Assembly (NCBI RefSeq): GCF_003002055.1
Contig: NZ_PVZF01000011.1
Location: 62,001 to 126,000, forward strand
Reading direction: 5' to 3'
DNA from: Kineococcus rhizosphaerae
GTDB lineage: Bacteria > Actinomycetota > Actinomycetes > Actinomycetales > Kineococcaceae
DNA: 64,000 nt
Shown: positions 44,497-58,003 of the stretch, piece after piece
Layout: every line of letters starts with the position of its first letter
Numbering within the stretch: position 1 is the first letter of the stretch
The notes under the pieces: generated by a model
What the model saw: the letters and a program-made list of their open reading frames with translations, nothing else
Told to the model about the DNA's origin: nothing
The model's database searches: none
Program-made: the position numbers and the translations under genes

Positions 44497-47172
44497 ATGA
44501 ATCGTTGGAAAGCGGTGATCGCTGCGGCGAGCGCAGCGGTAGCTCTGGTGGCGACCGGGGGGCACGCAGCTGCGGCTCCGACCGACCCGGCGGTGGGGCG
44601 GGAACGAGTGATCGTCCAGCTCAAGGCCCGCGCCGATGTCCAGTCGGTCGCCGACCAGCAAGGCCGTGGCGGGGGCAGGGTGCGGCACGTGTACGAGCAC
44701 GTGCTCGACGGCTTCGCGGCGGAACTCCCCGCCCAGGCGGTCGCAGCGCTGCGCAAGAACCCGAAGGTCGAGTCCGTGACTCCCGACGTGCAGACCCACG
44801 GTTCCACGACGCAGGTCGACCCGCCCTGGGGGCTGGACCGCATCGACCAGCGACCCACCGCACCGGACGGCGGGTACTCCTACGACACGACCGGTGCCGG
44901 GGTCACCGTGTACGTCGTGGACTCGGGCATCCGGTTCAGCCACACCGAGTTCGGTGGCCGGGCCAGCAGCGGGTACGACTTCGTCGACGGCGACTCCGAC
45001 GCCTCCGACTGCGCCGGACACGGGACGCACGTCGCAGGCACCATCGGCGGTCGCACCTACGGCGTCGCCAAGGACGTCCGGCTGGTGTCCCTGCGCGTCT
45101 TCGCCTGCACCAACGGCGGCTGGAGCAGCGACACCATCGCGGCCTTCGACTGGGCGGTCGCCCACAAGCAGGGGCCTTCCGTCATCAATTACAGCGGCAG
45201 TGGTGGGGCCGACGACCTCACCGACGAGGCAGCGGCCCGTGCGACGGCCGCGGGCATCCCCGTCGTCGTCGCCGCGGCGAACGACAACACTGACGCCTGC
45301 ACCAAGAGCCCCGCCAGAGCGCCCTCGGCGATCACGGTCGCGGCCTCCGACTCCAGCGACGTGCGCGCCTGGTTCTCCAACTACGGGCCCTGCGTCGACC
45401 TCTTCGCCCCGGGGGTCTCGGTGCTGTCGAGCACGATGGACTCCGACACCTCCAGCGGGTACATGAGCGGCACGTCGATGGCCACACCGCACGTGGCCGG
45501 GGCCGTCGCGCGCTACCTGCAGAGCAACCCCAGCGCGTCGGTGGCGCAGGTGACCGACGCCTTGAGGTCGTCGGCGACCACCGGCGTCGTCGTCGATCCC
45601 CAGTCGGCGAACAGCGGCCTGCTGCACGTCGCCCCTCCCGCCGCGACCGTTCCGGGCGCCGCGACGACGGTGAGCGCCGCCCAGGTCGGCACGACGCAGA
45701 CCGCGACGTTGTCGTGGGCGCCACCGGCGAGCGACGGCGGCTCGGCGATCACCGGCTACCGGGTCTCGCGCAACGGCACCGACACCAACGGCACCGGACC
45801 GTGGTCGACGACCGTGTCCGCCGCCACGCGCAGCTTCAGCTTCGGCGCCCTGGCCTACGGGTCCAGCTACACCTTCACCGTCGCCGCCCTCAACGCCGTC
45901 GGCACCGGAACCAGCACCTCAGCCGCACCGGTGACCATCACCCGACCCGCCACGACCGTTCCCGGGGCACCGACGACGGTGAGCGCCGCTCAGGCGGGCA
46001 CGACGCAGACCGCGACGTTGTCGTGGGCGCCACCGGCGAGCGACGGCGGTTCCGCCGTCACCGGCTACCAGGTCTCGCGCAACGGCACCGACACCAACGG
46101 CACCGGCCCCTGGTCCACGACCGTGTCCGCGACGGCACGGACGTTCTCCTTCGGTTCCCTCGCCTACGGCTCCAGCTACACCTTCACCGTCGCCGCCCTC
46201 AACGCCGTCGGCACCGGAACCAGCACCTCAGCCGCACCGGTGACCATCACCCGACCGGCCACGACCGTTCCCGGCGCACCGACGACGGTGAGTGCCGCCC
46301 AGGTGGGTACCTCCCAGAGCGCCACCCTGTCGTGGGCGCCCCCGGCGAGCGACGGAGGCTCGGCCATCACCGGCTACCGGGTCTCGCGCAACGGCACCGA
46401 CACCAACGGCACCGGACCGTGGTCGACGACCGTGTCCGCCGCCACGCGCAGCTTCACCTTCGGCGCCCTGGCCTACGGGTCCAGCTACACCTTCACCGTC
46501 GCCGCGATCAACGCCGTCGGCACCGGAACCAGCACCTCACCGGCCGCGGTGACCGTGAAGCGCGCCACCGTCCCGGACGCACCCACCGGCGTCAGCGCCG
46601 CGCGGGGCAACGCGTCGGCGAGCGTGAGCTGGACCGCACCGTCGTGGCCGGGAACCTCCGCCATCACCGGCTACCGGATCCGCCGCTACGCCGGCACCAG
46701 CACCACCGTGCAGGCCACCACCACCGTGGCGGCCAGTGCCCGCAGCTTCACCGCCACCGGGCTGACCAACGGGACGGGCTACAGCTTCGACGTCACCGCC
46801 GTCAACGCTTCGGGCCTCGGCGCGGTGTCCGCCCGCACCGCGGTGGTGACGCCGGCCACGGTGCCGGGAGCACCGGTCGTCGGGACGGCGACCTCGGGAG
46901 CCTCCGGGGGCAGCATCACCGCGACCGCGACCTGGAGCGCCCCCGCGAGCAGCGGCGGCAGCTCGATCACCGGTTACCGGGTCAGCGCGTTGCGGATGAG
47001 CTCCTCGGGAACGGTGCTGGGCACCACCGTCTCCTCGACGCAACCGGCCTCGGCCAGGTCGCTGTCGATGACCCTCCCCCAGACCGGCACCTACCGGTTC
47101 ACCGTCCAGGCCCTCAACGCCGTCGGGGCCGGCAGCCAGTCCGCCCGCTCCAACGCCGTCACCGGTCAGTAG
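44497..47172 (+). CDS. Secreted S8 subtilase with five FN3-like domains
   Basis: An 891-residue exported protease. Residues 1-28 are a signal peptide. An I9-type propeptide follows (ERVIVQLKARADVQSV ... VESVTPD). The catalytic domain has Asp142 (VVDSG), His175 (HGTHVAG) and Ser327 (GTSMATPH); the oxyanion Asn is in AAANDNTDAC, where the usual glycine before Asn is alanine. The C-terminal ~490 residues form five fibronectin type III-like domains, the first three nearly identical. It degrades extracellular protein. A GGACGGG stretch precedes ATG 44497, and a strong hairpin terminator follows the stop. Confidence 0.92.
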   Translation: MNRWKAVIAAASAAVALVATGGHAAAAPTDPAVGRERVIVQLKARADVQSVADQQGRGGGRVRHVYEHVLDGFAAELPAQAVAALRKNPKVESVTPDVQTHGSTTQVDPPWGLDRIDQRPTAPDGGYSYDTTGAGVTVYVVDSGIRFSHTEFGGRASSGYDFVDGDSDASDCAGHGTHVAGTIGGRTYGVAKDVRLVSLRVFACTNGGWSSDTIAAFDWAVAHKQGPSVINYSGSGGADDLTDEAAARATAAGIPVVVAAANDNTDACTKSPARAPSAITVAASDSSDVRAWFSNYGPCVDLFAPGVSVLSSTMDSDTSSGYMSGTSMATPHVAGAVARYLQSNPSASVAQVTDALRSSATTGVVVDPQSANSGLLHVAPPAATVPGAATTVSAAQVGTTQTATLSWAPPASDGGSAITGYRVSRNGTDTNGTGPWSTTVSAATRSFSFGALAYGSSYTFTVAALNAVGTGTSTSAAPVTITRPATTVPGAPTTVSAAQAGTTQTATLSWAPPASDGGSAVTGYQVSRNGTDTNGTGPWSTTVSATARTFSFGSLAYGSSYTFTVAALNAVGTGTSTSAAPVTITRPATTVPGAPTTVSAAQVGTSQSATLSWAPPASDGGSAITGYRVSRNGTDTNGTGPWSTTVSAATRSFTFGALAYGSSYTFTVAAINAVGTGTSTSPAAVTVKRATVPDAPTGVSAARGNASASVSWTAPSWPGTSAITGYRIRRYAGTSTTVQATTTVAASARSFTATGLTNGTGYSFDVTAVNASGLGAVSARTAVVTPATVPGAPVVGTATSGASGGSITATATWSAPASSGGSSITGYRVSALRMSSSGTVLGTTVSSTQPASARSLSMTLPQTGTYRFTVQALNAVGAGSQSARSNAVTGQ
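45643..46566 (+). repeat. Three tandem 309-bp FN3-coding units
   Basis: Units start at about 45643, 45952 and 46261 (period 309 bp, 103 codons). They share long identical stretches, such as the codons for RVSRNGTDTNGTGPWSTTVS and YGSSYTFTVAA. The high DNA identity shows recent duplication or ongoing homogenisation; the two distal FN3 domains are diverged. Confidence 0.88.
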
Positions 47173-47268: not shown

Positions 47269-47895
47269 TCACCGACGTCCTGCGACCGGGGACCTCACCC
47301 CGGCGGCGCCGAGGCAGGCGGCCGCGATCTGCTCCGCCAGGTCCGGCGCCCCGGCGGGGGGCCGGGGCAGGTTCGCGGCCATCTCGACCAGGTGCAGGCA
47401 GGTGGCCCCGACCACCTCGGGCGTCACCGGGTGCCCCGGCGGGACGACCTGGGCGGCCAGGTCGGTGTAGACGGCCCCGAGCTGGCGGCGGTGCTCGTGG
47501 AACGGCGCGAAGCGCGGGTGCTGCGTCTCGGGCGCCACGTACAGGGCGGCGATCCCCAGCGGTCCGGCGAGCACCGTCCCCACGTCGGCCACCACGAGTG
47601 CGTGCAGCGCGGCGACGGCGTCGGGGGCGGCCGCCCGGATGGCGTCGACGAGGTCGAGGGTCGGCCGGACGGAGGCCTCCAGGAGCTCGAGGAGGATCTC
47701 GTCCTTGCCCGCGAAGTGGTGGTAGAGCGAGGCCTGCCGCATCCCCACGCTCTCGGCGATCGCGCGGGTCGACGTCGCCGCGAAACCCGACTCGGCGAAC
47801 AGGGCCGCGGCGGCGTCGAGGATCTCCTGGCGCGGGGTGCGGCCGTCCTCACTGACCGCGCGGCTGCGCGGCCGGCCCACCCGTCCCGTGCTCAC
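47269..47895 (-). CDS. TetR family regulator of the guanidine/urea operon
   Basis: A 208-residue repressor. The HTH is near residues 20-65: ILDAAAALFAESGFAATSTRAIAESVGMRQASLYHHFAGKDEIL in outline, with YHHF typical of TetR. The C-terminal part is a helical ligand domain. The start, GTG 47895, overlaps the allophanate hydrolase stop by 4 bp, making it the last gene of the six-gene operon. The 22-bp palindrome at the operon's front is its most likely target, giving autoregulation; the inducer may be guanidine, a derivative or urea. Confidence 0.85.
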   Translation of the reverse strand: MSTGRVGRPRSRAVSEDGRTPRQEILDAAAALFAESGFAATSTRAIAESVGMRQASLYHHFAGKDEILLELLEASVRPTLDLVDAIRAAAPDAVAALHALVVADVGTVLAGPLGIAALYVAPETQHPRFAPFHEHRRQLGAVYTDLAAQVVPPGHPVTPEVVGATCLHLVEMAANLPRPPAGAPDLAEQIAAACLGAAGVRSPVAGRR

Positions 47896-49568
47896 CCCGC
47901 CGATGCTGCCACGACCTGCCCGGACTCCGACCGCCGGGCGGCGAGCCAGGAACCGGCCGCGGTGATCTCCTGCGCCCCGGCCAGCGCGGCGGGCTCGGCG
48001 AGGAACCCGCGGACGACGCGCCCGTCGGACAGCGTGACCGCCCCGATGGTCATGGGCTGCGGCAGCGCCGCGACGAAGGCGCCGAAACCGCGCGCCGGCA
48101 GCCGCCACACCTCCCCCTCGATCGCGGCGCCCCCGGCGTCGCGGACCATCCCGGGTTTCGGCGGGACGGTGTCGAGGGCGTGCAGGCGGTACTGCGGTGC
48201 GGTGACCGCCGGACCGACCAGGCTCGCGCCCGCGGCGACGAGTTCGTGGTTGAGCGGCTGGCCGGACAGGTGGGCGCCGACGACGAGCAGGTCGACGCCG
48301 TGGTCGGCGAAGCGGTCGGCGAGCACCGCCAGCGTCCGGTCGCTGAACGCCGGGCCGGTGAGCATGACCCCGAAGGGCAGGCCGTCGACCGTGCCGGCGG
48401 GCACGGCCAGGGAGGCCAGGTCGAGCAGGTTCGCGAAGTTCGTGAACCGGCCCAGCCGGGAGTTCGCGGCGACGGGTTCGGCGGCGACGTCGGCGAGGGT
48501 GGGGTGTCCCGTCGTCGTCGGGGTGAGCAGCGCGGCGGTGCCGTCGAGCAGTTCCCGGGCGAGCGCGGCGATCTCGTCGACGCGCTGCCGGTCGCGGAAC
48601 ACGTCGACCGCGCCGACCGCCTCCCCCGCCCGGACGATCGCGGCGACCGTCGGGTCGAGGTCGGTGCCGACGAGGTCGGCGTGGGCGGCGATGTGGTCGC
48701 CCACCGCGGCGGTCCGCTCGGCGACGAACGCGCCGCCGTAGAGCAGTCCCGCAGCCTCCAGGAGCGGGGCGATGTCGACCTCCACGACCTCGGCCCCGCT
48801 CGCACGGACCTGCTCGACGTAGCGGGCGAACGCCTCGGCCCACCCGTCCGCCATCCCCGTGAGGTGCTCGGGGGTGGGGATCGCGACGCGGGGGCGGGCC
48901 GGGGGCGCGGGCAGCGGCGCGTCGGTGCGGGCGAGGGGGTCGCGGCCGTCGGGCCCGACCATCGTCTCGGCGACCCGGCGCGCGGTGGCCAGGTCGCGGG
49001 CGAAGACGGTGACGCAGTCGAGGCTGCGGCACGCGGGCACGACCCCGGTGGCCGGGACGAGACCGCGCGTGGGTTTCACCCCGACCAGGCCGTGCAGCGC
49101 GGCGGGCACCCGGCCGGACCCGGCCGTGTCGGTGCCGAGGGCGACGTCGACGAACCCGAGGGCGACGGCGACGGCCGACCCCGAGCTCGACCCGCCGGAG
49201 ATCCGGTCCGGGGCGAACGCGTTGCGGACCGCGCCGTACGGGCTGCGCGTGCCCACCAGACCCGTCGCGAACTGGTCGAGGTTCGTCTTGCCCAGGACGA
49301 GGGCACCGGCGGCGCGCAACCGGGCCACCGCCGTGGAGTCCTCGGCGGGTTCGCGGGCGAAGGACGGGGCGGCCGCGGTGGTGGGCAGACCCGCGACGTC
49401 GATGTTGTCCTTGACCGCGACGAGGGTCCCCGCCAGGGGCAGCGCGGGGTCGATCGTCGCGGCCTCGGCCAGCACGTCGTCGAGCTCGCGCAGCGTGATC
49501 CACACCTCCGGCCGGTCGGCGTCGGCGATGCGGGCGTAGGCCTTCCGGACCTTCAGCTCGAGGTTCAC
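47892..49568 (-). CDS. atzF: Allophanate hydrolase (AtzF/DUR1-like amidase)
   Basis: A 558-residue amidase-signature enzyme that splits allophanate to ammonia and CO2. The Ser-cisSer-Lys triad is visible: Lys53 (VAVKDNID), a cis-Ser near 127 (ISGGSSSGS) and the nucleophile near Ser151 (TDTAGSGRVPA). The C-terminal ~110 residues match the extra AtzF domain (FGVMLTGPAFSDR, then PAPGFGAF-like LPARGFGAFVAAL). It is coupled to the carboxylase and to tetR by 4-bp overlaps, as the last enzymatic step of the pathway. GTG 49568 start. Confidence 0.93.
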   Translation of the reverse strand: MNLELKVRKAYARIADADRPEVWITLRELDDVLAEAATIDPALPLAGTLVAVKDNIDVAGLPTTAAAPSFAREPAEDSTAVARLRAAGALVLGKTNLDQFATGLVGTRSPYGAVRNAFAPDRISGGSSSGSAVAVALGFVDVALGTDTAGSGRVPAALHGLVGVKPTRGLVPATGVVPACRSLDCVTVFARDLATARRVAETMVGPDGRDPLARTDAPLPAPPARPRVAIPTPEHLTGMADGWAEAFARYVEQVRASGAEVVEVDIAPLLEAAGLLYGGAFVAERTAAVGDHIAAHADLVGTDLDPTVAAIVRAGEAVGAVDVFRDRQRVDEIAALARELLDGTAALLTPTTTGHPTLADVAAEPVAANSRLGRFTNFANLLDLASLAVPAGTVDGLPFGVMLTGPAFSDRTLAVLADRFADHGVDLLVVGAHLSGQPLNHELVAAGASLVGPAVTAPQYRLHALDTVPPKPGMVRDAGGAAIEGEVWRLPARGFGAFVAALPQPMTIGAVTLSDGRVVRGFLAEPAALAGAQEITAAGSWLAARRSESGQVVAASAG

Positions 49569-52500
49569 GCGGCCACCTCCAGGGGTTTGAGGGCGAACAG
49601 CACCTGGCCGGCCGTGACGGCCTCACCGGGTTTGACGTAGACCTCCAGGAGTTCCCCCGCGGCGGGGGCGGTCACGGCGGTCTCCATCTTCATGGCCTCC
49701 AGCGCGAGGACGCGCTCACCGTCGGCGACGTTCTCGCCCGGTGCCCCCGACACCTGCCAGACGGTCGCAGCGAACGGGGCCTGCACCCCGACCGACCCCG
49801 CGGGCAGGTCGACGGGACCGGCGGCGACGGCCGCGGGCGGTTCGGGTTTGACGTCGAACTCCCCCGACGCGCGCCAGGCGGCCTTCTCGGCCTCGAAGGC
49901 GGCGGTCTGGGTGGCGCGGAACGCCTCGATGGAGGCTGCGTTCTCGGCGAGGAACGCCTCGTGCTCGGCGAAGGAGAAGACGCCGTCCTCGACGTCGACG
50001 GGCCCGCGCCCCGCGGCCGTCTCCTCGCGCAGTTCGAGGAGTTCCTCCGCCGAGACGGGGTACCACTCGATGCGGTCGAAGAACCGCAGCGCCCAGGGGT
50101 TCTCCGCGAACAGGCCGCTGCGCCGGAAGCGGTTCCAGATCTGCGTGGTCCGGCCGACGAACTGGTACCCGCCGGGTCCCTCCATGCCGTAGACGCACAG
50201 GTACGCACCGCCGATGCCGACGGAGTTCTCCGCCGTCCAGGTGCGGGCCGGGTTGTACTTCGTGGTGACGAGGCGGTGGCGCGGGTCCAGCGGGGTCGCG
50301 ACGGGTGCGCCGAGGTAGACGTCCCCGAGGCCGAGCACGAGGTAGCTGGCGTCGAACACGGTGCGGAACACGTCGTCGACGGAGTCGAGGCCGTTGACGC
50401 GGCGGATGAACTCCAGGTTCGACGGGGTCCAGGGGGCGTCGTCGCGGACCCCGGCCATGTACCGCTCGATCGCCAGGTGCGTCGCGGGGTCGTCCCAGGA
50501 CAGCGGGAGCCGCACGCGCCGGGACGGCACGACGAGGTCGCTGGTGGGCGGCAGCGCGTCGTCGAGCTCGCGCAGCAGACCCACGAGCTGGGAGGCGCGC
50601 AGCACGCTCGCGTCCGTGTGGACCTGCAGCGAGCGGATCCCCGGGGTGATGTCGAGGATCCCCGCGGGCCGGTTCTCCTGCAGCGCCGTCATCAGGGCGT
50701 GGACGCGCATCCGCAGGCCGAGGTCGAGGACCATGTCGCCGAACTCGACGAGGACGTTGTCGTCGCCGTCGCGCCGGTACGTCGCCGCGGGCCGGGTGGC
50801 GGTGCCGGGGACGCGGGCGAGGATCCCGTCGTCGCCGTCACCGCCGGAGGCGGGGTCCAGGCGCTTGAGCCGGGGCTGCGCGGCCTCGGCCTCGCGGACG
50901 GGGACGAACCGCACGCGGTCCCCCGGGCGCAGCTGGCCGAGCTTCCACAGCTCCCCGGACGTCACGACGGCCGGGCAGACGAAACCGCCCAGCGACGGGC
51001 CGTCGGGGCCGAGCAGGATCGGGGTGTCGCCCGTGAAGTCGATGGCGCCGACCGCGTAGGGGGTGTCGTGGATGTTCGACGGGTGCAGCCCCGCCTCGCC
51101 GCCGTCGGTGCGCGCCCAGCGCGGGCGCGGGCCGATCAGCCGCACGCCGGTGCGGGCGGAGTTCAGGTGCACCTCGTAGTCGGTGGCGTAGAACTCGTCG
51201 AGGTCGGCGCGGGTGAAGAACTCCGGGGCCCCGTGCGGGCCCTCGGTGACGCCGATCGTCCACGCGTCCGTGTACTCGGGGCGTCGCTCGTCGGGGACGG
51301 GTCCGCCGATGGTGGTGAACCCGTCGCCCTCGGGGGCGCCGGGCCGCAGCACGTCACCGGCCTGCAGGGCCCGCCCGCCGTGGCCGCCGAAACCGCCGAG
51401 GGTGAACGTCGACGCGCTGCCGAGGTAGTGGGGGACGTCGAGGCCGCCGCGCACCGCGAGGGCCAGCCGCAGCCCCGGCCCGGTGGCCGTGCCGACGGCC
51501 AGGGTCCCGCCGGCGGGGACCTCCACGGGTTCCCACATCGGCTGCGCGACCCCGTCGACCGTGACCTCGGCGGGAGCGCCGGTGACGCACACGACGGTGT
51601 CGACGGAGAACCGCAACGTCGGGCCGGTCGCGGTGATCTCCAGGCCGGGGGCCCCGACGGGGTTGCCCACGGCCAGGTTCGCCTCGCGCAGCGACCACGG
51701 GTCCATCGGGCCCGACGGGGGGACGCCGACCTGCCAGTGGCCCACCCGGCCGGGCAGGTCCTGCACGGTCGTCATCGCCCCCGGGGTCAGCACGTCGATG
51801 CGCGGGTCGGGGTCCTCGGTGATGTCCAGCGTGGACGTCGAGTGGGTCGCGGTGCGCAGCGGGAGGTCGTCGACCAGGGAGCGCAGCAGGCCCAGGTTCG
51901 TCACGACGCCGTCGACGCGGGAACCGGTCAGGGCCTCGCCGAGCAGGTCGAGGGCCGCGTCGCGGCCGGGGGCGGTCGCGATCACCTTGGCCAGCATCGG
52001 GTCGTAGAACGGGGTGATCTCCGAACCCGTCTCGACCCAGCCGTCGACGCGCACGCCGTCCAGGCGCGGGAACCCGGCGTTCGTCACCAGGCCGGGGCTG
52101 GGGGCGTTCTCCTTGGCGGGGTCCTCGGCGTAGACGCGGGCCTCGACGGCGACGCCGGTCGGGGTCCACGCACGGTCGAACGCGGCGTCGACGAGCGGGT
52201 CGGCGTGCCCGTCACGGGCCAGCCGCAGCATGAGGTCGACGAGGTCGACGCCGTAGGCGAGCTCGGTGACGGGGTGCTCGACCTGCAGACGCGTGTTGAC
52301 CTCCAGGAACGCGGCCTCCTCGCGGACCGGGTCGTAGACGAACTCGACCGTCCCCGCCGACCGGTAGCGCACCGAGGCCATCAGACCGGCCGCGGTGGAG
52401 GCGATCTGCTCGCGCACGTGCGCGGGCAGCGCGGGGGCGGGTGCCTCCTCGACGACCTTCTGGTTGCGGCGCTGCAGGGAGCAGTCGCGGTCGCCGATGA

Positions 52501-53167
52501 CGGCGATCCGGCCCTGGCCGTCGCCGAAGACCTGCACCTCGACGTGCCGGGCCGGACGCACGAGGCGTTCGAGGAACACCCCGGTCGAACCGAAGTTCGC
52601 GGCGGACAGCCGCACGACGCGCTCGTACGCCTCGCGGACCTCCTCGGCGGTGGCGCAGGCCTGCATGCCGATCCCGCCGCCCCCGCCGGTGGCCTTGAGC
52701 ATGACGGGCAGGCCCACCTCCGAGGCCGCGCGCACGGCGTCGTCGGCGTCGGCCAGCAGGCCGGTCCCGGCGAGCATGGGGACCCCGGCCCGCCCGGCCA
52801 GCTCCCGGGCGGTGTGCTTGCTGCCGAAGGCGGTGATCTGCTCGGGCGTGGGCCCGACGAACGCGATCCCTGCGTCCTCGCAGGCGCGGGCGAACTCGAC
52901 GTTCTCGGACAGGAACCCGTAGCCGGGGTGGATCGCGCCGGCACCCGTCTGCTGCGCCGCGGCGAGGATCGCGTCGGCGCGCAGGTAGCTGTCGCGGGCC
53001 GGGGCCGGGCCGAGCCGCACGGCCGTGTCGGCCTCGCGGACGTGCGGGGCGGCCCGGTCGGCGTCGGAGTACACGGCGACGGTCCTCAGCCCGAGGGCCT
53101 TCGCGGAGCGCAGGACGCGGCAGGCGATCTCGCCGCGGTTGGCGACGAGGACGGTGTCGAAGCTCAT
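49565..53167 (-). CDS. Urea carboxylase-family biotin enzyme, probably guanidine carboxylase
   Basis: A 1200-residue biotin-dependent carboxylase. Residues 1-450 are biotin carboxylase (VLVANRGEIACRVLRSAK, ATP loop KATGGGGGIGMQ, EVNTRLQVEHPVTE). Residues ~480-1000 hold the KipA/KipI-type carboxyltransferase (GDTPILLGPDGPSLGGFVCP). The biotin Lys is near 1160 in LEAMKMETAV. It carboxylates urea to allophanate or guanidine to carboxyguanidine with ATP and bicarbonate. Because the operon carries two DUF1989 genes, shown in other bacteria to encode carboxyguanidine deiminase, guanidine is the more likely substrate. ATG 53167 overlaps the upstream gene by 4 bp. Confidence 0.9.
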   Translation of the reverse strand: MSFDTVLVANRGEIACRVLRSAKALGLRTVAVYSDADRAAPHVREADTAVRLGPAPARDSYLRADAILAAAQQTGAGAIHPGYGFLSENVEFARACEDAGIAFVGPTPEQITAFGSKHTARELAGRAGVPMLAGTGLLADADDAVRAASEVGLPVMLKATGGGGGIGMQACATAEEVREAYERVVRLSAANFGSTGVFLERLVRPARHVEVQVFGDGQGRIAVIGDRDCSLQRRNQKVVEEAPAPALPAHVREQIASTAAGLMASVRYRSAGTVEFVYDPVREEAAFLEVNTRLQVEHPVTELAYGVDLVDLMLRLARDGHADPLVDAAFDRAWTPTGVAVEARVYAEDPAKENAPSPGLVTNAGFPRLDGVRVDGWVETGSEITPFYDPMLAKVIATAPGRDAALDLLGEALTGSRVDGVVTNLGLLRSLVDDLPLRTATHSTSTLDITEDPDPRIDVLTPGAMTTVQDLPGRVGHWQVGVPPSGPMDPWSLREANLAVGNPVGAPGLEITATGPTLRFSVDTVVCVTGAPAEVTVDGVAQPMWEPVEVPAGGTLAVGTATGPGLRLALAVRGGLDVPHYLGSASTFTLGGFGGHGGRALQAGDVLRPGAPEGDGFTTIGGPVPDERRPEYTDAWTIGVTEGPHGAPEFFTRADLDEFYATDYEVHLNSARTGVRLIGPRPRWARTDGGEAGLHPSNIHDTPYAVGAIDFTGDTPILLGPDGPSLGGFVCPAVVTSGELWKLGQLRPGDRVRFVPVREAEAAQPRLKRLDPASGGDGDDGILARVPGTATRPAATYRRDGDDNVLVEFGDMVLDLGLRMRVHALMTALQENRPAGILDITPGIRSLQVHTDASVLRASQLVGLLRELDDALPPTSDLVVPSRRVRLPLSWDDPATHLAIERYMAGVRDDAPWTPSNLEFIRRVNGLDSVDDVFRTVFDASYLVLGLGDVYLGAPVATPLDPRHRLVTTKYNPARTWTAENSVGIGGAYLCVYGMEGPGGYQFVGRTTQIWNRFRRSGLFAENPWALRFFDRIEWYPVSAEELLELREETAAGRGPVDVEDGVFSFAEHEAFLAENAASIEAFRATQTAAFEAEKAAWRASGEFDVKPEPPAAVAAGPVDLPAGSVGVQAPFAATVWQVSGAPGENVADGERVLALEAMKMETAVTAPAAGELLEVYVKPGEAVTAGQVLFALKPLEVAA

Positions 53168-53832
53168 GCCGGTGCTCCCGTCGGCGCCGTCACGATCATC
53201 CGCAGCGGCGTGGGGTTGAAGTCGTTGCAGGGGTTGTTCACCTGCGGGCAGTTCGAGACGACGACGAGGAGGTCGACCTCGGCGCGGAACGCGACCCGCT
53301 TGCCGGGGCCGGAGATGCCGTCGACGATGCCGAGGGTCCCGTCGGCCTCGACCGGGACGTTCATGAACCAGTTGAGGTTCGAGACGAGGTCGCGGGCCGA
53401 CAGCCCGTGCCGGGCCCCCTCCGCCAGGAAGTTCTCCCGGCAGCCGTGCTGGTGCTCGGTGTGGTGGCCGTACCGCAGGGTGTTCGACTCCTTGCCGCAG
53501 GCGCCGCCGATCGTGTCCTGGCGTTCCACCTCGTTGCCGACGACCGTCGCGAGGGGGTTGCCGTGCTGGCTGCGCAGGACGGTCCCGGTCCGGACGTAGG
53601 CGTTGCCCTGCCAGGCGAGGGTGTCGGGGACGCTGTAGCGCTCGGAGCGGTCGGCGTCGGAGAACAGCAGGCAGTCCGCGGACTGGTTGCCGCCCACGTC
53701 GACGATGGTCAGGACGTTCCCGGCGGCCACGACGGCCGACCACGGGGCACGGGGGGCGACGCGCTCGTCGAGGACGACCTCGCCGTCGACGAGGGGGCCG
53801 CTCCAGTCCAGGACGGTCTCGGTGATCGTCAC
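53164..53832 (-). CDS. DUF1989 protein, probable carboxyguanidine deiminase subunit (UAAP1-like)
   Basis: A 222-residue DUF1989 protein, formerly 'urea carboxylase-associated protein'. Landmarks are VGGNQSADCLLFSDADRSERYSVPDT, the cysteine-rich GGACGKESNTLRYGHHTEHQHGCRENF, and the late NCPQVNNPCNDFNPTPLR. The several Cys and His suggest a metal site. Family work on guanidine utilisation shows paired DUF1989 proteins deiminate carboxyguanidine to allophanate. GTG 53832 and both ends overlap neighbours by 4 bp. Confidence 0.87.
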   Translation of the reverse strand: MTITETVLDWSGPLVDGEVVLDERVAPRAPWSAVVAAGNVLTIVDVGGNQSADCLLFSDADRSERYSVPDTLAWQGNAYVRTGTVLRSQHGNPLATVVGNEVERQDTIGGACGKESNTLRYGHHTEHQHGCRENFLAEGARHGLSARDLVSNLNWFMNVPVEADGTLGIVDGISGPGKRVAFRAEVDLLVVVSNCPQVNNPCNDFNPTPLRMIVTAPTGAPA

Positions 53833-54656
53833 AGTCCTCGTGCCTCCGCGTGCTCGATCGTGTTCAGGTAGGCCCGGTGCAGTTCCGGCGTGCTGGTGAA
53901 GCGCTCGTCCGCCGGTCCGGTGGGTCCGTCGCGCCAAGCGTGGACCCGCAGCGGTCCCACGGTGAACTCCGGGCGCGGGTCCAGCGGGTGCGCGGTGTTC
54001 GCCACGAGGACGATGAGCGGCAGTTCGGCGAGGAGTTCCACCTCGGCCGGGCCCGTCGAGCCGAGCCAGTCGAAGGCACCGTCGGCCCCGACCCGGACGC
54101 CCTGGAAGAAGCTGACGCTCGGGGGCAGGTCGCGCGGTCCGAGCCCCTGCTTGGCGGCGGCGAGGGTGAGCAGCCCGCGTCCCGACGGGCTCGGTCCCTC
54201 GGGGGCCGCGTCACCGTACTTGCGCGTGTTCCAGGCGTCGGAGGTGGTGCCGCAGAACGCGTCGTGCCGCCCGGAGGTGTCACCGACGACCGTCGCGAGG
54301 ACGCGCCCGTCGCCCGACAGCAGCGGGTGCCCCGCCCCGAGGTAGGCCTGCCAGGGGATCTTCTGCGTGTCGGCCACGTTCAGCCGTTCCCACGGCGCGA
54401 CGGCGGAGAACAGCAGGACGTGCGCGCAGGCGTCGCCCGTGACGTCGGTGAACCGGATCCGGGTCCCCCGGGCGACGACCTTCGAGGTGTAGCCACCGGG
54501 GGCCACGGTCTCGGCCCAGGTGAGCCGGGACGGGTCGACGTCGGCCGGGGCGAACGGGGAGCTCGACGCGGGCAGGTAGGGCATGGCGTCGGCGAGGGTC
54601 CCGGCCTGGGACCGGGCGTCGTCGCGGGCGGCGGCCAGGGTCGCGGTGTTCCTCAC
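53829..54656 (-). CDS. DUF1989 protein, probable carboxyguanidine deiminase subunit (UAAP2-like)
   Basis: A 275-residue paralogue of the preceding DUF1989 protein, with VTGDACAHVLLFSAVAPWERLNVADTQKIPW, DAFCGTTSDAWNTRKYG and a late VLVANTAHPLDP. It lacks the His/Cys cluster of its partner, so the two are unequal subunits, as expected for a heteromeric deiminase. GTG 54656 overlaps the permease stop by 4 bp. Confidence 0.86.
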   Translation of the reverse strand: MRNTATLAAARDDARSQAGTLADAMPYLPASSSPFAPADVDPSRLTWAETVAPGGYTSKVVARGTRIRFTDVTGDACAHVLLFSAVAPWERLNVADTQKIPWQAYLGAGHPLLSGDGRVLATVVGDTSGRHDAFCGTTSDAWNTRKYGDAAPEGPSPSGRGLLTLAAAKQGLGPRDLPPSVSFFQGVRVGADGAFDWLGSTGPAEVELLAELPLIVLVANTAHPLDPRPEFTVGPLRVHAWRDGPTGPADERFTSTPELHRAYLNTIEHAEARGL

Positions 54657-56239
54657 GCGGGTTCCTCCACAGGGGTGGTGCGCTGCGGCGCGCTGACCAG
54701 CAGCTGCCCCAGGACGATCTTCCCGCCGTGGCGGGAACGGTTGCGGCGGTGGACGAGGGCACCGACGACGAGGGTGGCGGCGATGAACAGCAGGGCGCTG
54801 TACTGCAGCCACCAGGTGCCGTCGGTGAGGTCGTAGACGCTGGCGCGCGGCCAGGCGAGGTTGACGACCATGACCGTCTGGTAGACGACGGCGAGGACGT
54901 TGACGGGGACACCCCAGCGGCCCAGGGAGAACAGCGGTTTCCCGAACTCGTCGGTGCCGCCGGTGGGCAGTTCCCCGCGGAGCCGGCGGACCAGCAGCGG
55001 CAGCGTCACGCCGAGGTAGGCGAGGTACAGCATCGCGATGCAGAGGCTGGCCAGGGCGGTGAACACGGCGCTCTGGTCCCAGTTCACGGCCAGCGCGATC
55101 GCCGCGCCGAGCCCCACGAGCACGGCCGCGCCGATGGGGGTCCCGGTGCGCGGGGAGACCCGGCCGAGCAGGTCCGCGAACGGGAACGCCTTCTCGCGGG
55201 CCATCGAGTAGACCATCCGCGACCCCGAGGTCTGGACGGCGAGGGTGCAGACGACGACGGCGATCGCGACGCACACCAGCAGCAACCGGCCCCCGACGTC
55301 ACCGAGGCGCGCCGTGAGGACGTACGCCAGACCGCCGCCGGCGAGAGAGCCGTCGGTCAGGCTCGGCGCGGCGACGACCCCGCCGACGAGCAGCAGGGCA
55401 CCGCCGACGCCGGACAGCACGAGGGCGCGCAGGATGGTGCGCGGCGTCGTGGCGCGCGGCGCGCGGGTCTCCTCGGACAGTTCCCCGGCGGAGTCGAAGC
55501 CGACCATGACGTAGGCGGCCATGAGGGAACTCGCGAGCCACAACCCGAGGTAGTTCCCCTCCCCCGCGCCCTGGCTGGTCAGGACCACCGAGGGGTTCCG
55601 TTCGGCGTGGCCGAACAGGGCGACGACGAGGACGGCGACGCCGATGATCTCGACGACGACCCCGGCGGAGGTGATGACCGCCATGAGCCGGACCCCGACG
55701 GCGTTGACGACCGTGGTGACGACCAGCAGCAGGACGCCGAGGACGACGGCGTTCTGCGCACCCGTCGCCGACACCGGGGAGGAGTCCGCGCCGGATCCGC
55801 CGACGAGCTGGAACCCGGACCAGATCGTGGGCAGGACGGCCTGCAGGGCGATCGCCGCGGTCGCGACGGTCAGGACCTGGCCGATCACCATGACCCAGCC
55901 GGTGAACCACCCGACGTCCGTGCCGGCCAGCCGGCTGGACCACTGGAAGACCGCCCCGGAGATGGGGTAGCGCGCGGCGAGCTCGGCGAAGCACAGCGCG
56001 ACGAGCAGCTGGCCGGCGAAGACCGTGGGCCAGGTCCAGAAGAACCCGGCACCGCCGAAGCTGAAACCCAGCCCGAAGAGCTGGAACACCGTGGTGAGGA
56101 TCGAGACGAAGGAGAAACCCGCGGCGAACGACGCGAAGGGACCGACGTTGCGGCGCAGCTGCTGGCCGTAGCCGAAGCTCCCGAGGTCGTGGCTGTCGGG
56201 GGCGTGGTCGGGGTGGGAGCGGGGTGCGGGAACGGACAT
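54653..56239 (-). CDS. APC-superfamily permease of the guanidine/urea operon
   Basis: A 528-residue amino acid/polyamine-type permease with about twelve helices. The N-terminus has LRRNVGPFASFAAGFSFVSILTTVFQLF, the helix-1 break common in APC transporters, and the loop RYPISGAVFQWSSRLAG. It is the first gene of the operon and probably imports guanidine, urea or a related amine. ATG 56239 follows GGAGGG. The 22-bp palindrome sits about 31 bp upstream. Confidence 0.88.
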   Translation of the reverse strand: MSVPAPRSHPDHAPDSHDLGSFGYGQQLRRNVGPFASFAAGFSFVSILTTVFQLFGLGFSFGGAGFFWTWPTVFAGQLLVALCFAELAARYPISGAVFQWSSRLAGTDVGWFTGWVMVIGQVLTVATAAIALQAVLPTIWSGFQLVGGSGADSSPVSATGAQNAVVLGVLLLVVTTVVNAVGVRLMAVITSAGVVVEIIGVAVLVVALFGHAERNPSVVLTSQGAGEGNYLGLWLASSLMAAYVMVGFDSAGELSEETRAPRATTPRTILRALVLSGVGGALLLVGGVVAAPSLTDGSLAGGGLAYVLTARLGDVGGRLLLVCVAIAVVVCTLAVQTSGSRMVYSMAREKAFPFADLLGRVSPRTGTPIGAAVLVGLGAAIALAVNWDQSAVFTALASLCIAMLYLAYLGVTLPLLVRRLRGELPTGGTDEFGKPLFSLGRWGVPVNVLAVVYQTVMVVNLAWPRASVYDLTDGTWWLQYSALLFIAATLVVGALVHRRNRSRHGGKIVLGQLLVSAPQRTTPVEEPA

Positions 56240-56269
56240 CGGTCGATCCCTCCGGTCGGTGGCTCGTGA

Positions 56270-56291
56270 ATACCTGTCGATCGACAGGTAT
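56270..56291. promoter_or_regulatory. Palindromic TetR operator of guanidine/urea operon
   Basis: ATACCTGTCGA (56270-56280) is followed directly by its exact reverse complement (56281-56291), a 22-bp perfect palindrome 31 bp before the permease start. Size and symmetry fit a TetR dimer or dimer pair; the operon's last gene is tetR. Confidence 0.75.
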
Positions 56292-56415
56292 GGCTCCGAG
56301 TCTGGCCGAGGAGGTGTTTCGCGCGTGTTTCCGGACCGTCAAAGTCTGGTTACCCCACCGGTCGTCGATCAGCGGGAACCCGGGAGGGGCGGACACCTCC
56401 TGGGACGACGAGTGC

Positions 56416-57534
56416 TCATTCGGCCACGAAGGACCCGGCGGAGGGGTGGGCGGAGACGTGAGGATCGCGCGGGCCCAGCCACGCCTCGAACCCGTCCTCG
56501 CCCGGGACCGCGCCGTCGGCGGCCTGCGCGGCCGCCTCCTCGCGGGTGGTGGCCAGGACGTCGGCGAAGGCGGCCCGGACCCGCCGGCGGTCGGCCGGGT
56601 CGGTGCCGGTGACGACCAGGTGCGTGCTGCGCTCACCGGGGCGCCAGGTCCCGCTCACCCCGATGCTCAGCTGACCGCCGGCGCCGTTCCACTCGCAGAC
56701 CGTGCCTGGGCGGGTGGTCAGGCGGAAGGTGCCGCGGGCCCGCAGGCGTCCGGCACCGAGGTCCTCGATGCGCTCCAGCAGCCGCCCCGGGTGCAGGGTG
56801 TGCGCCGACGTCAGCTCCGTGGTCCACACCCCGCAGGTGTCGGTGACCGGGGGCCGGTGCACGGCCAGCGGGTCGGCGCGCACGCTCGTGCGGTGCCCCC
56901 CGCCCAGGGGGGCGGTCAGCTGCGTGGCGTCGACCCGGTCCAGCGGCAGCACGGGCACCGCCGGTCCGCACAGGTGGGCCAGCAGCGTGCGGGCGTGCTC
57001 GTCGGGGATCCCGTCGGCCACCACCAGGTCAGCCTCGTCGAGCTGCTGGGCCAGGACTTCGCCCACCGCCCGCTCGTCGTCGTCGCCGGAAGCGGTGCTG
57101 CGCTCGGACAGCAGCGCGTCGCCGAGCAGGTCCTCGACGACGCCGGCGGCCTCGACGACGGCCACGACCCCGCGCACCGCGACCACCTCGCGCAGGTCCT
57201 CCTCCGCGCACAGCGCGGCCAGCAGCGGTGCGGGGTCGGCGGCGACGGGCAGGGCCAGCACGAGGTCGGACCAACGACCGCTGGCGGCGATCGCGGCGAC
57301 GGTCGGCAGGACGTCCTCGCGCTGGGCGCAGCCCAGGCAGGCGTGCTCGAGCGGGACCAGCACGTCCTCCACGATCCCGGCGGCGTCGCTCACGACGCGC
57401 CGCAAGCCGTCGGGGAGGAGGTCGTAGCGCAGGACGACGGCGCCGGGGACGTCGCAGAACACCGCGCCGGTGGCCAGGTCCCGCTGGAGCGGGTGGACCG
57501 AGGTCACGAGGGTGATCGGCAGGACGGGATTCAC
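56416..57534 (-). CDS. G3E/COG0523-like protein lacking the P-loop, in zinc-starvation island
   Basis: A 372-residue protein related to CobW/COG0523 metallochaperone GTPases. Conserved parts remain: a metal-type motif EHACLGC (in place of CxCC), LPVAADPAPLLAAL, DLLGDALLSER and the C-terminal domain with LHPGRLLERIEDLGAGRLRARG. The Walker A GxxGxGKT that should follow the first strand is absent: the sequence reads ITLVTSVHPLQRDLATG. It is therefore probably not a GTPase. It belongs to a variant seen beside zinc-free ribosomal protein genes in actinobacteria. GTG 57534 follows GGAGG; a Zur-like box lies 14 bp upstream. Confidence 0.82.
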   Translation of the reverse strand: MNPVLPITLVTSVHPLQRDLATGAVFCDVPGAVVLRYDLLPDGLRRVVSDAAGIVEDVLVPLEHACLGCAQREDVLPTVAAIAASGRWSDLVLALPVAADPAPLLAALCAEEDLREVVAVRGVVAVVEAAGVVEDLLGDALLSERSTASGDDDERAVGEVLAQQLDEADLVVADGIPDEHARTLLAHLCGPAVPVLPLDRVDATQLTAPLGGGHRTSVRADPLAVHRPPVTDTCGVWTTELTSAHTLHPGRLLERIEDLGAGRLRARGTFRLTTRPGTVCEWNGAGGQLSIGVSGTWRPGERSTHLVVTGTDPADRRRVRAAFADVLATTREEAAAQAADGAVPGEDGFEAWLGPRDPHVSAHPSAGSFVAE

Positions 57535-57547
57535 AGGCACCTCCACA

Positions 57548-57562
57548 TGAGAACGATTCTCG
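57548..57562. promoter_or_regulatory. Zur-like box 1
   Basis: TGAGAACGATTCTCG is a near-perfect 15-bp palindrome close to the actinobacterial Zur site TGAAAATGATTTTCA. It lies between the divergent G3E-like gene (start 57534) and the unknown gene at 57605. Confidence 0.75.
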
Positions 57563-57604
57563 TTTAGAGTGACGTTACCAGCCGTCGAACCCTGGAGGAG
57601 TCCT

Positions 57605-58003
57605 GTGCCCCGCCCCGCCGACACCTCGTTCACCCCACCCAGCCCACCACCGCCCCCCTCCCTCCGGGGCTGGGTGCTCGTCCCGGCCGGCGAACCGGGC
57701 CTGCTGCACCGGGCCCGGTCCGTGGTGCGCACCTCGCGCGACCTCGTCCTGGTCTCCCTCGACCCTGCGGCGGCGACACCGGCCCGAGCCCGCCTGGGGG
57801 TGGGACTGGAGTTGCCCTGGACCGCACCGCGACCAGGACGGCTGGTCTGGTTCGGTGACCTGACCGCCCTCGAGACCGCCGCGGTGCTGGAGTGGATCGC
57901 CGGACCGGTGGCGGGGCTGGCGACGGTCCCCGCCGCACTGCGCCACCGGGTCACGGTGGTGCAGCCGGCGGCGATCCACCCGCAGGGTCAGCCGCGCCCG
58001 TAG
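57605..58003 (+). CDS. Hypothetical protein of the zinc-starvation island
   Basis: A 132-residue soluble protein of unknown function. A Pro/Ser-rich N-terminus ([16 protein letters not shown]) is followed by a compact alpha/beta region ([54 protein letters not shown]). The ribosome-binding site GGAGGAG before GTG 57605 is strong. It faces Zur-like box 1 and so is probably induced by zinc limitation. Its 3' end overlaps the convergent bL31 gene by 16 bp. Confidence 0.55.

Follow-up and report, generated by a model that had tools for sequence, protein, structure and literature searches.

Operons in which AmtR accompanies a carboxylase, and which have been read as urea operons, were described by Jessberger et al. 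2013, who came upon them because they co-occur with amtR in ten actinobacterial genomes (PMC4222082; this and the other papers given by PMC number are cited for the passages that concern the systems compared here). In Kineococcus radiotolerans, all reading frames of the operon overlap by GTGA or ATGA, and the AmtR of M. smegmatis was shown to bind ahead of msmeg_2184, with the result that the operon is expressed less (PMC4222082). According to the same passages, neither urea nor amino acids (0.5 to 5 mM) had an effect on the binding of M. smegmatis AmtR, and the authors called it puzzling that urea alone did not support growth of M. smegmatis (PMC4222082). The operon described below and its regulator, overlaps included, are already known under this urea reading; what is new, at the level of sequence, is a class-wide linkage table that joins AmtR to the Asp-type (guanidine) carboxylase. 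Taken as a whole, the locus is best explained as a guanidine-assimilation operon under AmtR repression, a reading to which we assign a probability of roughly two in three.

Organization of the operon

The window is a 64,000-nucleotide stretch of DNA from Kineococcus rhizosphaerae; its G+C content is 74%. Six genes lie on its minus strand, from 56239 down to 47269, in the order permease, UAAP1, UAAP2, carboxylase, allophanate hydrolase and TetR (Table 1). Reading-frame analysis allows a 4-base overlap at 5/5 junctions if translation starts at GTG 54656, GTG 53832, ATG 53167, GTG 49568 and GTG 47895; with these starts, it bears out a preliminary description in which all six genes overlap by exactly 4 bp. 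The TetR gene has another possible start, GTG 47880, with which its overlap with the hydrolase gene would be gone.

The best NCBIfam match of the permease is TIGR03428 ('permease, urea carboxylase system'), which it matches over its full length with 657.5 bits and without reaching the cut-off of 740.45. UAAP1 and UAAP2, both above cut-off, are paired DUF1989 subunits of distinct types, as in carboxyguanidine deiminase (CgdA/CgdB); a PF09347 tree has been used for DUF1989 proteins (PMC11410670). The carboxylase comprises biotin carboxylase, carboxyltransferase and biotin-carrier parts, and the hydrolase has an amidase domain together with the C-terminal domain of allophanate hydrolases.

Table 1. 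Features of the operon and of the region upstream of it (positions in the window)
Feature	Position	Strand	Basis
Possible GlnR box (four 5-mers spaced 11 bases apart)	56316..56353	-	13/16 consensus positions
Predicted AmtR operator, perfect 22-bp palindrome, core CTGTC-N4-GACAG	56270..56291		Fits core of 22-bp AmtR consensus
APC-superfamily permease, predicted guanidine importer	54653..56239	-	TIGR03428; Pfam AA_permease_2
UAAP1 (DUF1989), predicted carboxyguanidine deiminase subunit	53829..54656	-	TIGR03425, 273.6 bits (cut-off 205.95); PF09347
UAAP2 (DUF1989), other predicted carboxyguanidine deiminase subunit	53164..53832	-	TIGR03424, 305 bits (cut-off 284.7); PF09347
Predicted guanidine carboxylase (model name urea carboxylase)	49565..53167	-	TIGR02712, 1765.5 bits; alignment to 5i8i
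Allophanate hydrolase, amidase and C-terminal domain	47892..49568	-	TIGR02713, 646.6 bits (cut-off 511.05); PF01425, PF21986
AmtR, TetR-family repressor	47269..47895	-	PDB sequence and structure matches

Substrate of the pathway

As a criterion for guanidine carboxylase, Asp has been demanded at the position of K. lactis residue 1584, and Asp at 1330, where urea carboxylase has Asn, has served to tell the two enzymes apart (PMC11410670, Nature 2024); the Asp/Asn difference is also given in PMC12186494. The carboxylase of the window has the guanidine-type Asp at both equivalents: residue 710, aligned to N1330 of 5i8i, and residue 949, which corresponds to K. lactis 1584 when the position is counted on past the end of the 5i8i alignment. 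Moreover, its permease is of the APC type, which has been predicted to import guanidine in nitrifiers (PMC11410670), and a urease alpha subunit is encoded elsewhere in the same genome (852.6 bits, cut-off 680), which would make a urea carboxylase superfluous.

The deiminase genes were compared over 89 other loci, of which 49 came from an order sample of 396 genomes and 40 were among 45 further places in a class sample of 394 genomes (G424:C75, G430, G747, G600 and G553 were omitted, as was a second contig piece of G072); a stretch of at most 20 kb was fetched per locus, and one script scored all of them. UAAP1 and UAAP2 were present together at 69/72 loci with an Asp-type carboxylase and at 0/17 with an Asn-type one, the latter coming from the same class and in some cases from genomes that also hold an Asp-type copy. 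A true urea-carboxylase operon, as the annotation and the publications on relatives would have it, is hardly to be expected: its appeal lies in NCBIfam models that label these proteins as parts of a urea system and in the M. smegmatis papers that read the operon as urea metabolism, and it has to face the Asp at the discriminating position, the Asn-type copies that go without UAAPs, the urease, and the failure of M. smegmatis to grow on urea alone or of urea to affect AmtR binding there. A substituted guanidine such as methylguanidine is a similarly slim prospect as the substrate; two additional enzymes channel methylguanidine into a carboxylase operon in another bacterium (PMC12508155), but no dioxygenase or other extra enzyme is found among the six genes here, and guanidine alone accounts for them. 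As proposed in the preliminary description, which favored guanidine over urea, the substrate is thus very probably guanidine, judging from the two signature Asp residues, the paired UAAP1 and UAAP2, the APC-type permease and the separate urease, and the urea label on the operon is most likely wrong.

The regulator and its operator

The TetR protein encoded by the last gene finds its best PDB sequence matches in AmtR of M. smegmatis (5e57, 9.6e-34) and of C. glutamicum (5dy1, 1.9e-32). The top six PDB sequences are all AmtR, at 1.3e-27 or below, and the best non-AmtR sequence follows at 2.9e-12. Its predicted structure (mean pLDDT 87, from a prediction run that comprised two sequences) gives Z scores of 20.6 with C. 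glutamicum AmtR and 20.5 with M. smegmatis AmtR, the best other TetR reaching 18.0. By sequence and modelled fold the regulator is AmtR; the same matches led us to reject the candidate identity of an unnamed new TetR regulator.

The perfect 22-bp palindrome reported earlier ahead of the operon is present, separated from the permease ATG by 30 bases. It is the sole match in the window when 3 mismatches are allowed (100 shuffles gave 0) and occurs once in the whole genome. In a family sample of 12 genomes from two genera, 7/12 carry it at up to 3 mismatches, one copy each, and in the six relatives that have it, it lies ahead of the same operon; in two others (G003 and G009), the operator core is present with more changes. 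The operator mostly takes the form ATACCTGTC-N4-GACAGGTAT in the window's genus, and outside the genus, the core is kept and the flanks often vary jointly on both sides, e.g., TTTCTGTC-N4-GACAGAAA, symmetric changes of the kind predicted for a site bound by a dimer. The core fits the 22-bp AmtR consensus TAtCTGTCa-n2-cGACAGATAT (AmtRsav, Chen et al. 2013, as cited in PMC8864220). In a first background comparison, a site with up to 1 mismatch was found in 25/42 regulatory regions and in 37/2050 random 250-base stretches, the latter an upper bound because true sites had not been cleared from it. A search of 56200-56460 for a sigma-70-type promoter and a terminator found none. By analogy with its relatives, AmtR in all likelihood represses the operon through this palindrome; the earlier suggestion that the TetR encoded in the operon acts on it by way of the palindrome is supported as a prediction, with the additions that the TetR is AmtR and that the operator is of a published AmtR type.

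Linkage of AmtR to the Asp-type carboxylase

Across the 89 loci, an AmtR-like TetR was found within the fetched stretch at 68/72 Asp-type carboxylase loci versus 0/17 Asn-type loci, and the operator core CTGTC-N4-GACAG, with up to 1 mismatch and no more than 400 bp from a gene start, at 55/72 versus 0/17; since the loci are related by descent, these counts are not independent. The Asp loci without a TetR in the stretch (L122, L211, L215 and L217) have the operator in 4/4 cases, and an AmtR-like match lies on another contig in two of their genomes (G200 and G534). As for the 17/72 Asp loci in which the core at up to 1 mismatch is absent, 14 come from two families, f6 with 6 loci and f10 with 8, whose sites all carry 2 mismatches; L125, L137 and L224 had no site even as good as 2 mismatches. 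In the order sample of 396 genomes, a match to the window's AmtR was present in 40/40 genomes with an Asp-type carboxylase and in 0/7 with the Asn type only. Moreover, where one genome carries both carboxylase types (G020, G133, G159 and G721), the regulator lies in the stretch of the Asp copy only.

Three or six carboxylase candidates were scored per genome, depending on the search, so that carboxylases may have been missed. Among the candidates scored, two same-genus genomes (G008 and G010) had no carboxylase match, and they had neither a TetR match nor the palindrome. An AmtR match without a carboxylase match among these candidates was seen in 7 genomes: UAAPs adjoin the TetR gene on short contigs in G158 and G163 and lie approx. 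7 kb from one AmtR match in G219 and G311, and neither UAAPs nor a carboxylase was found within the fetched stretch in G025, G265 and G291. A separate set of 80 loci included 69 (L022-L090) that were set aside because the discriminating residue could not be read in them; the 11 readable ones, which are not among the 89, comprised 10 Asp loci and 1 Asn locus (Nocardia L012). Seven of these 10 Asp loci are from Proteobacteria or Acidobacteria, one is from Microbacterium (L011) and one from a contig-edge MAG (L021); AmtR was present in L020 (Demequina) only. In the Asp-type cluster of Microbacterium L011, neither AmtR nor the operator was found.

Riboswitches and additional control

No Rfam family reached its gathering score in the window, and none of the four sub-threshold Rfam matches at 56200-56700, which includes the leader, was of a guanidine riboswitch class; guanidine-IV was covered within the window, as far as Rfam covers it. 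In genomes that bear the carboxylase, guanidine-I was found in 0/47 under more stringent filtering, by which weak matches may be missed. Among 20 chosen genomes, guanidine-II was not found in the window's own genome; G002 had one match above the cut-off, and G004 and G009 had matches below it. Guanidine-III exceeded the cut-off in 37/47 carboxylase-bearing genomes, that of the window included, so the idea of a cell free of guanidine riboswitches was rejected. By position, none of the guanidine-III matches in these 37 genomes lies upstream of the carboxylase operon. The stretches around 20 of the 37 were fetched, and in 18/20, again including the window's genome, the riboswitch stands ahead of a gene for an SMR exporter; in G003, the operon is closely followed by this pair of guanidine-III and SMR exporter, which is on the other strand. 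The preliminary description suggested that the palindrome and TetR replace a riboswitch. This stands insofar as the operon has no guanidine riboswitch ahead of it, yet a guanidine-III riboswitch does precede the SMR exporter gene in the genome. Because it precedes the exporter and not the operon, control is better called divided than replaced: probably, RNA controls guanidine export and AmtR controls assimilation.

That TetR alone stands in for the riboswitch is likewise true only in part: AmtR control is supported, but a GlnR-like box lies upstream, and in M. smegmatis, the homologous operon needs GlnR for its nitrogen response. Scored with a consensus taken from PMC10704036, the box reaches a score attained by 0/540 background stretches, a contrast that is only suggestive because the background consists of random, mostly coding stretches; against the box, no more than 11-12 positions match in same-genus relatives. 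The 38-base box and the M. smegmatis data weakly suggest GlnR activation above AmtR repression, and the operon probably has a further regulator besides AmtR.

A candidate pocket in AmtR

In 71 operon-linked AmtRs, that of the window included, D104, F132, R136, Y143 and E171 (numbering of the window AmtR) are found in 71/71 and E123 in 66/71; M. smegmatis AmtR retains all six residues. The window AmtR has D, E, Y and E at 104, 123, 143 and 171 and does not carry the residues of the global Corynebacterium type. D104, E123, Y143 and E171 occur in 0/9 of C. glutamicum AmtR and eight AmtRs of genus g225, which is taken as Corynebacterium because C. glutamicum falls within it; the g225 genomes had no carboxylase match among the candidates scored. 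In a tree whose root is not known, the nine Corynebacterium-type AmtRs group together with 100/100 support at the end of a long branch, and, as one clade, their changes count as one lineage, not nine events. In four AmtR-like proteins for which no carboxylase turned up in the vicinity or elsewhere in the genome, all four residues (L160, L161 and L272) or all but E123 (L271) are retained, and other unlinked AmtR-like proteins (L162-L164, L167 and L168) are variable at these residues.

Judging from their helix positions, D104, E123, Y143 and E171 would line one pocket, whose acidic and aromatic residues would suit a guanidinium ion. As the operon is most likely for guanidine, AmtR becomes a strong candidate for a guanidine-sensing protein, and the chances that its effector comes from the guanidine pathway appear evenly balanced. 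The structure, operator and regulon of AmtR outside Corynebacterium have been available for years. In the open-access literature, we found nothing joining AmtR and guanidine, no effector for AmtR outside Corynebacterium and no study in which guanidine or an intermediate of the pathway was tried on AmtR; the papers found there that name AmtR and urea carboxylase together take the urea reading. In 2016, Petridis reportedly described M. smegmatis AmtR binding as ligand-independent and proposed an antisense RNA.

It has to be considered that the operon serves guanidine while AmtR reads general nitrogen status and no pathway compound, either through GlnK or through antisense RNA and competition with GlnR. 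This would agree with C. glutamicum AmtR, which has no identified small effector and is proposed to be derepressed by adenylylated GlnK (PMC8864220), with the need for GlnR in the operon's nitrogen response in M. smegmatis (PMC4222082), and with the GlnR-like box. Nevertheless, we regard it as rather unlikely: the M. smegmatis AmtR targets reported in PMC4222082 are the operon and amtR only, which would be odd for a general sensor, AmtR and its operator are linked to the Asp-type carboxylase only, and the residues of the candidate pocket, which linked AmtRs retain, are gone from the C. glutamicum clade. We tentatively propose, at somewhat less than even chances, that AmtR is a transcription factor responding to guanidine, the first such protein, and that in Actinomycetes it originally served to control guanidine genes; the master nitrogen regulator of Corynebacterium would then be derived, having lost the guanidine operon and the pocket and having been rewired to GlnK.

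Proposed mechanism

In the mechanism outlined here, for which the genes present, the signature residues, the identity of the regulator as AmtR, its operator, the class-wide linkage and the exporter riboswitch are read from sequence, the permease would bring guanidine into the cell, where the biotin-dependent carboxylase would convert guanidine, ATP and bicarbonate into carboxyguanidine. The UAAP1/UAAP2 pair would deiminate carboxyguanidine to allophanate, and the hydrolase would split allophanate and thus yield three ammonia and CO2 per guanidine. AmtR, encoded by the last gene of its own operon, would sit on the palindrome before the permease start and keep transcription low; this enzymology and the binding and repression by AmtR are established in relatives. 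As to the effector, the pocket and the role of GlnR, we infer that guanidine or a pathway intermediate would bind the pocket that includes D104, E123, Y143 and E171 and release AmtR, which is most likely how repression is lifted, and that GlnR would probably activate from the upstream box under nitrogen shortage. A guanidine-III riboswitch elsewhere in the genome would separately control the SMR exporter.

Comparison with known systems

The guanidine reading would correct a urea label carried throughout the class, and joining AmtR to guanidine suggests where a well-known nitrogen regulator came from. If true, cells would sense guanidine by RNA for export and by protein for assimilation.

The closest described operons, K. 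radiotolerans Krad_0901-0906 and M. smegmatis msmeg_2184-2189, likewise comprise a permease, two unknown frames, a carboxylase, an amidase and AmtR, and Krad_0901-0906 has overlapping start and stop codons as here, a likeness established from the description and locus numbers in PMC4222082. They differ in having been published as urea operons with no effector found in the passages concerned, and amtR is unlinked in M. smegmatis (PMC4222082). With the guanidine carboxylase pathway (carboxylase, CgdA/CgdB and hydrolase), the locus has in common both signature Asp residues, both DUF1989 subunits and the hydrolase; the characterised guanidine carboxylase operons, as far as the passages cited here describe them, have guanidine-I or guanidine-II riboswitches and usually an ABC importer, whereas AmtR and an APC permease are found here. 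C. glutamicum AmtR shares the TetR fold (Z 20.6) and an operator of similar design, CTAT-N6-ATAG, but is a global regulator of many nitrogen genes for which GlnK is proposed (PMC8864220), and, unlike the window AmtR, it lacks equivalents of D104, E123, Y143 and E171. AmtRsav of Streptomyces avermitilis has a 22-bp operator consensus whose core is in common with the palindrome (PMC8864220).

Shortened carboxylases in family f22

In 12 of the 13 family f22 loci of the class set whose carboxylase is of the Asp type, the guanidine signature, the match is confined to residues about 456-1130 of the window's carboxylase (L207, L210, L215, L217, L218, L220, L221, and L223-L227); L202 is the sole exception. 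In these 12 loci the matched portion corresponds to the carboxyltransferase part, and both the biotin carboxylase part and the biotin-carrier part are missing from it; L224 has a separate biotin-carboxylase-like match about 5 kb off. The parts that these 12 carboxylases lack may come from another carboxylase.

Genomic surroundings and additional loci

The promoter region of the window's operon is limited by the 3' end of a CobW-type protein frame. At L116, a locus fetched from another genome, a guanidine-III riboswitch and an SMR exporter gene lie directly behind the guanidine operon, convergent to AmtR. Two further guanidine-III riboswitches, one each at L188 and L190, precede a short membrane-protein-like frame that is not SMR. 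The table also lists a second urease-alpha-like frame from G000, apparently the window's own genome.

Coordinates of operon flanks and additional features
Feature	Position	Strand	Remark
CobW-type protein frame	window 56416-57954	minus	just upstream of operon
Subtilase carrying five stretches of fibronectin type III	window 44497-47172	plus	convergent to operon
Guanidine-III riboswitch of L116	G003, C174:13568-13631		
Second urease-alpha-like frame	G000:C6:221172-222839		612.5 bits, under the curated cut-off of 680
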